A DNA stretch of 64,000 bases from Henriciella sp. (GTDB lineage Bacteria > Pseudomonadota > Alphaproteobacteria > Caulobacterales > Hyphomonadaceae), in NCBI GenBank assembly GCA_021776655.1, contig JAJFFK010000039.1:55059-119058 (forward strand), given 5' to 3'. The notes below the pieces were generated by a model that was not told the DNA's origin, did not search any database, and worked only from the letters and a program-made list of their open reading frames with translations. Of this stretch, positions 7,036 through 17,408 are shown piece after piece (positions within the stretch are counted from its first letter, which is position 1; each line of letters begins with the position of its first letter). The position numbers were made by a program, and so were the translations under genes.

Positions 7036-7068
7036 TACAATTGTAACAATATTGACTACAGGTGTAGT
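7036..7068. promoter_or_regulatory. Tandem TACANNTGTA operator (BlaI/MecI/CopY type)
   Basis: Two exact copies of TACANNTGTA are present: TACAATTGTA at 7036-7045 and TACAGGTGTA at 7057-7066. The second extends to the 14-bp dyad ACTACAGGTGTAGT. Their centres are 21 bp apart, two helical turns. TACANNTGTA is the recognition core of the BlaI/MecI/CopY repressor family. A TTGACT that could serve as a -35 element overlaps the second copy. No clear -10 is seen. The site lies 77-109 bp before the NnrU-type gene and 102-134 bp before the leftward secreted protein. No such repressor is encoded in the window. Confidence 0.55.
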
Positions 7069-17076: not shown

Positions 17077-17408
17077 ATGCCTACTCCCAGAAACTACCTG
17101 ATGGCCGCGATTGCGGCGACCATCATCACGGCACCAGCTTTCGTCGGTTCTGTGGATCAATCACAGAGCGTCTCCATAAAAATCTCTGGCTATGATCTAT
17201 CGACCCAGCTGGGGCAACAATCGTTTTGAACAAGATCGAGAAAGCTGCCGAGCGTGTCTGCGGTCTACGTCCGGCAACCAAAACTTTGCGGTTTAGTCAG
17301 CTCGCTGCGACGTACATCGCAACCTCAACTGAGACTGCTGTTGCCTCGATTGGCTCGCCAACGCTAGATCGCCTCTATGCGCTTAAGGGTGATCAAGAGG
17401 CCAACTAG
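17077..17408 (+). pseudogene. UrcA family secreted protein, frameshifted
   Basis: AAGGAG precedes ATG 17077, which starts a signal peptide (MPTPRNYLMAAIAATIITAPAFVG) and the UrcA core SIKISGYDLSTQLGQQSF, then TGA. The remaining half is open in the -1 frame from 17226: LNKIEKAAERVCGLRPAT and on to 17408. Joined at the TTTT run the two parts read DLSTQLGQQSFLNKIEKAAERVCG, which matches the family spacing exactly and gives about 110 aa, the usual length. One T appears to be missing. The second family cysteine also seems replaced (ATYIATSTETA). It could be a pseudogene, a sequencing error, or a -1 slip. A strong terminator follows. Confidence 0.7.

Follow-up and report, generated by a model that had tools for sequence, protein, structure and literature searches.

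We analysed a 64-kb stretch of a Henriciella genome (G000; 2.97 Mb, 47 contigs), hereafter the window, in which a 210-bp AT-rich spacer (G+C 38% versus 56% for the window) separates a gene for an NnrU-family membrane protein from a divergently transcribed gene for a secreted protein. The spacer holds two TACANNTGTA dyads, left and right (Table 1), which are the only sites of this form in the window against 0.23 expected. The earlier note had described two exact dyads with centres 21 bp apart, and both are present where it placed them. The pairing is far beyond chance: two such sites arose anywhere in the window in 2 of 100 shuffles, and a pair no more than 40 bp apart in none of 300 simulated windows. 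A search of the 2.97-Mb genome for the exact tandem, with up to two mismatches tolerated, returned this single instance. The dyad centres lie about 106–127 bp from the start codon on one side and 84–105 bp from that of nnrU on the other. A consensus scan found no sigma-70 promoter above threshold over the dyads; the TTGACT element listed in Table 1 lies in a register matching that of TTGAC[YACA in blaI1 promoters.

Table 1. Features of the window (position 1 is its first nucleotide).
Feature	Position	Strand	Evidence and comment
Divergent secreted protein, 166 aa	6434..6934	-	No Pfam or NCBIfam match; likelier ancestral target
Left dyad TACAATTGTA	7036..7045	.	Core of CGCTACAATTGTAACA; predicted BlaI2-type operator
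TTGACT, possible nnrU -35 element (weak)	7052..7057	+	Overlaps the right dyad; read from sequence
Right dyad TACAGGTGTA	7057..7066	.	Core of TTGACTACAGGTGTAGTT; BlaI1-like site, or BlaI2 site weaker than its left neighbour
nnrU-family membrane protein, 191 aa	7145..7720	+	Pfam NnrU, 181.5 bits; possible target
UrcA-family gene near radA, split by frameshift	17077..17408	+	TIGR04433 profile positions 3-45 and 48-73 in two consecutive pieces

The genome encodes two BlaI-family proteins (PF03965, 109.7 and 62.2 bits, both above the curated cut-off), BlaI1 on contig C5 and BlaI2 on contig C1. The earlier note's remark that no repressor lies nearby is therefore true within the window, and its proviso that the genome might contain no BlaI/MecI/CopY homologue falls away, since there are two. 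Neither translation contains a cysteine, so neither protein has a C-terminal Cys-X-Cys metal site, and both score under the NCBIfam CopY cut-off. For blaI1 we found two TTGACCACNNNTGTAGTC-type operators, for which orthologous loci gave the consensus TTGACYACANNTGTARTCAA. The coding sequence after this gene carries an apparent M56-type HExxH motif, HELIH, read by eye. Divergent from blaI1 lies a gene for a predicted membrane protein (L001 1961-2719; PepSY-like by eye) that may share the operator region. Upstream of blaI2 we found GCTACAGCTGTAAC, its core beginning 28 bp before the start codon. This auto-operator and the left dyad of the window have GCTACANNTGTAAC in common, being the same 14-mer except for two central bases. 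At each of the 24 loci examined, dyads with at most one mismatch stand 5' of blaI2, mostly in tandem.

Directly 3' of blaI2 lies the gene for a 458-aa BlaR1-like protein (L095 6179-7555, contig C1) with an M56 domain (PF05569, 65 bits) and a C-terminal Peptidase_M23 domain (77.6 bits); domain searches reported no match to a penicillin-binding sensor domain in this protein. Its HExxH motif reads HECTH or HECVH in 24/24 loci, and the M23 domain is recognisable at 23 of these, the remaining locus being cut by a contig end. This replacement of a penicillin-binding C-terminus by M23 is conserved across the genus (the G000 locus and 23 orthologous loci). Architectures combining M23 and M56 are mentioned without a function in a review (PMC9662197), and this was the only mention of the combination in the searched literature, which covered few subscription journals.

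The motif follows this repressor across genomes, an association that we computed directly. Among 29 same-genus genomes, RYTACANNTGTAAC occurs in 24/24 with BlaI2 and in 0/5 without (Fisher p = 8e-6, shared ancestry ignored). At the family level, where a BlaI2 relative was defined by E below 1e-15, GTTACANNTGTAAC was present in 31 of 65 genomes with such a relative versus 0 of 40 without, shared ancestry again being ignored; the reversed control pattern was present in 27/65 and 8/40, respectively. The genome-wide search in the window's own genome used sequence patterns, with matrix scoring applied to the 64-kb window, and returned 11 TACANNTGTA sites. Six of them have extended flanks and are intergenic, at blaI2 (C1), an EF-hand gene (a pair, C20), a TonB-dependent receptor gene (C22) and the window locus (the pair, C33). 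Five more (C3, C5, C11, C30 and C41) have no extended flanks and lie mostly inside predicted genes, and were deemed chance occurrences.

A BlaI2 matrix built from 56 training sites, taken from relatives only and spanning 16.4–25.2 bits, scored the left dyad at 20.8 bits, the top of the 64 kb and inside the training range; this score was attained in 1 of 300 simulated windows. The right dyad ranked second at 11.6 bits, below the training range, and the best site in the 64-kb window outside the pair reached 6.5 bits. The same strong-plus-weak tandem is found at the EF-hand gene of this genome (20.2 and 10.5 bits). It is very improbable that the dyads are chance palindromes or an operator for some unrelated regulator: the low G+C content of the spacer and the patchy conservation at the locus would suit such an origin, but no simulated window held so close a pair, the left score was nearly as rare, and the extended flanks agree with a BlaI2 motif derived independently from relatives. 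The earlier note's assignment to the BlaI/MecI/CopY class of operators is borne out by the exact TACANNTGTA cores, the presence of repressors of this class in the genome and the match of the left flanks to the BlaI2 operator.

The right dyad is less clear-cut. With the BlaI1 matrix it scored 14.5 bits, the top of the 64 kb, yet under the training range of 21.3–28.9 bits; both of its matrix scores thus fall below the respective training ranges. It may be BlaI1-like, or else a weak site for BlaI2. Outside the blaI1 promoter, it is the only site genome-wide within one mismatch of TTGACYACANNTGTARTC. It also fits the published CopY 16-mer RNYKACANNTGTMRNY (PMC7253601), which the left dyad does not. 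Its rank with the BlaI1 matrix and its solitary closeness to the BlaI1 consensus would be accommodated by a composite operator, with BlaI2 on the left dyad and BlaI1 on the right, so that two BlaI/M56 systems meet at one promoter. We regard this arrangement as unlikely, given that the score lies below every known BlaI1 site, that TTGAC may be merely a -35 element, that GTAGTTT-flanked dyads resembling the right one occur in BlaI2 auto-operators, and that no BlaI1-like site was seen in relatives at this locus.

Beyond the window, recurrent targets in relatives are blaI2 itself, a TonB-dependent receptor, an EF-hand secreted protein and an UrcA-family gene (TIGR04433) divergent from radA. Dyads with at most one mismatch stand upstream of the TonB-dependent receptor, EF-hand and UrcA/radA genes in many genomes, and in the window's genome the receptor gene with the operator adjoins ddl (C22). 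The operator thus appears to belong to a conserved gene set seemingly controlled by BlaI2 and comprising the outer-membrane receptor, the calcium-binding-type EF-hand protein, the UrcA protein and the repressor; this shared target set was likewise computed here. The earlier note had read the flanking genes as unusual targets that may point to a new regulon, and a conserved set of unusual targets is indeed what we found. No cop or beta-lactamase gene was seen among them. Membership varies between species, as indicated by the window itself, in which the UrcA-family gene is frameshifted and its operator is unrecognisable: no dyad with 0–1 mismatch lies between the split gene and radA, and the operator has decayed here, whereas relatives have an intact UrcA gene with a BlaI2 operator.

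Two further motifs accompany these promoters. A second palindrome, TATYG-N5-CRAYA, occurs in 13/13 UrcA/radA promoters (for example L220, L228 and L246) versus a 0.6% background; most promoters of genes in the secreted-protein family (relatives of the divergent gene of the window, L276-L283) also have it. A UzcR-like motif, CATTAC-N6-(G/T)TAA, lies beside the BlaI2 operators of 8/9 EF-hand and 4/12 TonB genes versus 0.5% of random 180-bp pieces, these promoters being homologous and not independent; the loci concerned are L099, L202, L219, L222, L226, L230, L238, L239 and some TonB loci. Its position adjoining BlaI2 operators suggests joint control with a metal-responsive activator. The window locus itself has no UzcR-like motif.

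Which of the two flanking genes responds was approached through their distribution in the genus. Orthologues of the secreted protein adjoin nnrU in 8/29 genus genomes. Pfam searches with all seven members of this family gave chance-level matches only, and a structural model of fair quality (mean pLDDT 77.7) matched nothing significantly in structural comparison (best E 0.016, TM below 0.5). With the divergent gene present, the spacer holds an exact operator in G000 (twice) and G022 and a one-mismatch operator in G001, G003, G015 and G044, but has lost it in G006, G014 and G024; conservation in relatives, which the earlier note had made a test of its proposal, therefore stands for the first groups and not for the last three genomes. 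Among the 15 nnrU genomes without the divergent gene upstream, there were no exact sites and one one-mismatch site. An operator thus accompanies the divergent gene in 6/9 genomes versus 1/15 without it (p = 0.004). Because the operator tracks the divergent gene better than nnrU among genus genomes, the secreted-protein gene is more likely to be the ancestral target, and nnrU as ancestral target was set aside; nnrU is possibly co-controlled here. A BlaI2 operator serving nnrU alone, leaving the divergent gene unaffected, seems to us improbable. The overlap of TTGACT with the right dyad in the register of blaI1 promoters and the distance of the dyads from nnrU are compatible with it, but a convincing -10 element is absent, and the near-complete lack of sites before nnrU in those 15 genomes argues against it.

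Taken as a whole, the tandem is very probably the operator of the distant BlaI2, working with the downstream BlaR1-like M56-M23 protein, as judged from genome comparison. Counter to this reading, the exact site at the locus is kept among relatives only in G022, and TACANNTGTA alone was insufficient for binding in work on CopY (PMC7253601). The distance of the dyad centres from both start codons, the lack of a clear sigma-70 promoter over them and the misfit of the left dyad to the CopY 16-mer also weigh against it. Following the established BlaI-BlaR1 mechanism (PMC7593790, a review of BlaR1), we infer that dimers of BlaI2, a BlaI/MecI-family winged-helix protein, would repress transcription by binding GTTACANNTGTAAC-type dyads, and that an envelope or metal signal sensed by the M56-M23 protein would lead to proteolytic inactivation of BlaI2 and free the scattered regulon. 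In the window, the strong left and weaker right dyads would most likely repress the secreted-protein gene and possibly nnrU.

The system resembles BlaI-BlaR1 and MecI-MecR1 of Staphylococcus and Bacillus in its winged-helix BlaI-family repressor, its often paired TACANNTGTA dyads and its auto-regulated operon, which also encodes an M56 membrane metallopeptidase bearing HExxH. Unlike those systems, it has an M56 partner whose C-terminal end is an M23 (LytM-type) domain, and its predicted targets are the TonB receptor, EF-hand, UrcA/radA and window loci and not blaZ or mecA. The CopY/CopR copper repressors belong to the same superfamily and use a TACANNTGTA operator, and the right dyad fits their 16-base consensus (PMC7253601), from which the left dyad departs; BlaI1 and BlaI2 differ from them in lacking Cys-X-Cys, in falling below the CopY cut-off and in having no cop exporter target in view. 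The copper and beta-lactam signals put forward in the earlier note find no support in the repressors, which lack Cys-X-Cys, or in the targets seen, which include no beta-lactamase or cop gene. With an M23 domain replacing the penicillin-binding one at the sensor end of the partner, a signal from the cell envelope or from metal is likelier, and peptidoglycan state or zinc/metal status would be a plausible input. In Caulobacter, UrcA is activated by UzcR, which responds to Zn, Cu and U (PMC8963506). Our gene set is akin to that regulon in its UrcA-family target and in the UzcR-like motifs beside the EF-hand and TonB operators; UzcR, however, is a response regulator that acts as an activator and has a different motif, absent at the window locus. 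The UrcA target and the UzcR-like motifs hint, by analogy, at metal or envelope stress. More tentatively, BlaI2 and the M56-M23 protein may act as a relay of BlaR1 type, with a peptidoglycan-binding (LytM-type) domain that has replaced the beta-lactam sensor and reports the state of the cell wall or of periplasmic metal. Such a relay would control a scattered envelope regulon in Hyphomonadaceae-type bacteria that includes the window site, where the second BlaI might also act.

The operator is of a known kind, and its regulon is without description in the searched literature; a BlaI regulon with TonB receptors was likewise not described there, few subscription journals being covered. BlaI/M56 pairs are common and are usually interpreted as systems for beta-lactams or copper. 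Comparative genomics now assigns to one such pair a sequence-specific motif and a regulon that is conserved and non-classical, together with a hint of function for the UrcA proteins, the receptor and the secreted protein at the window locus. The outer domain of its sensor is of the peptidoglycan-peptidase type, and the question of the signal is directly testable in cultured Henriciella.
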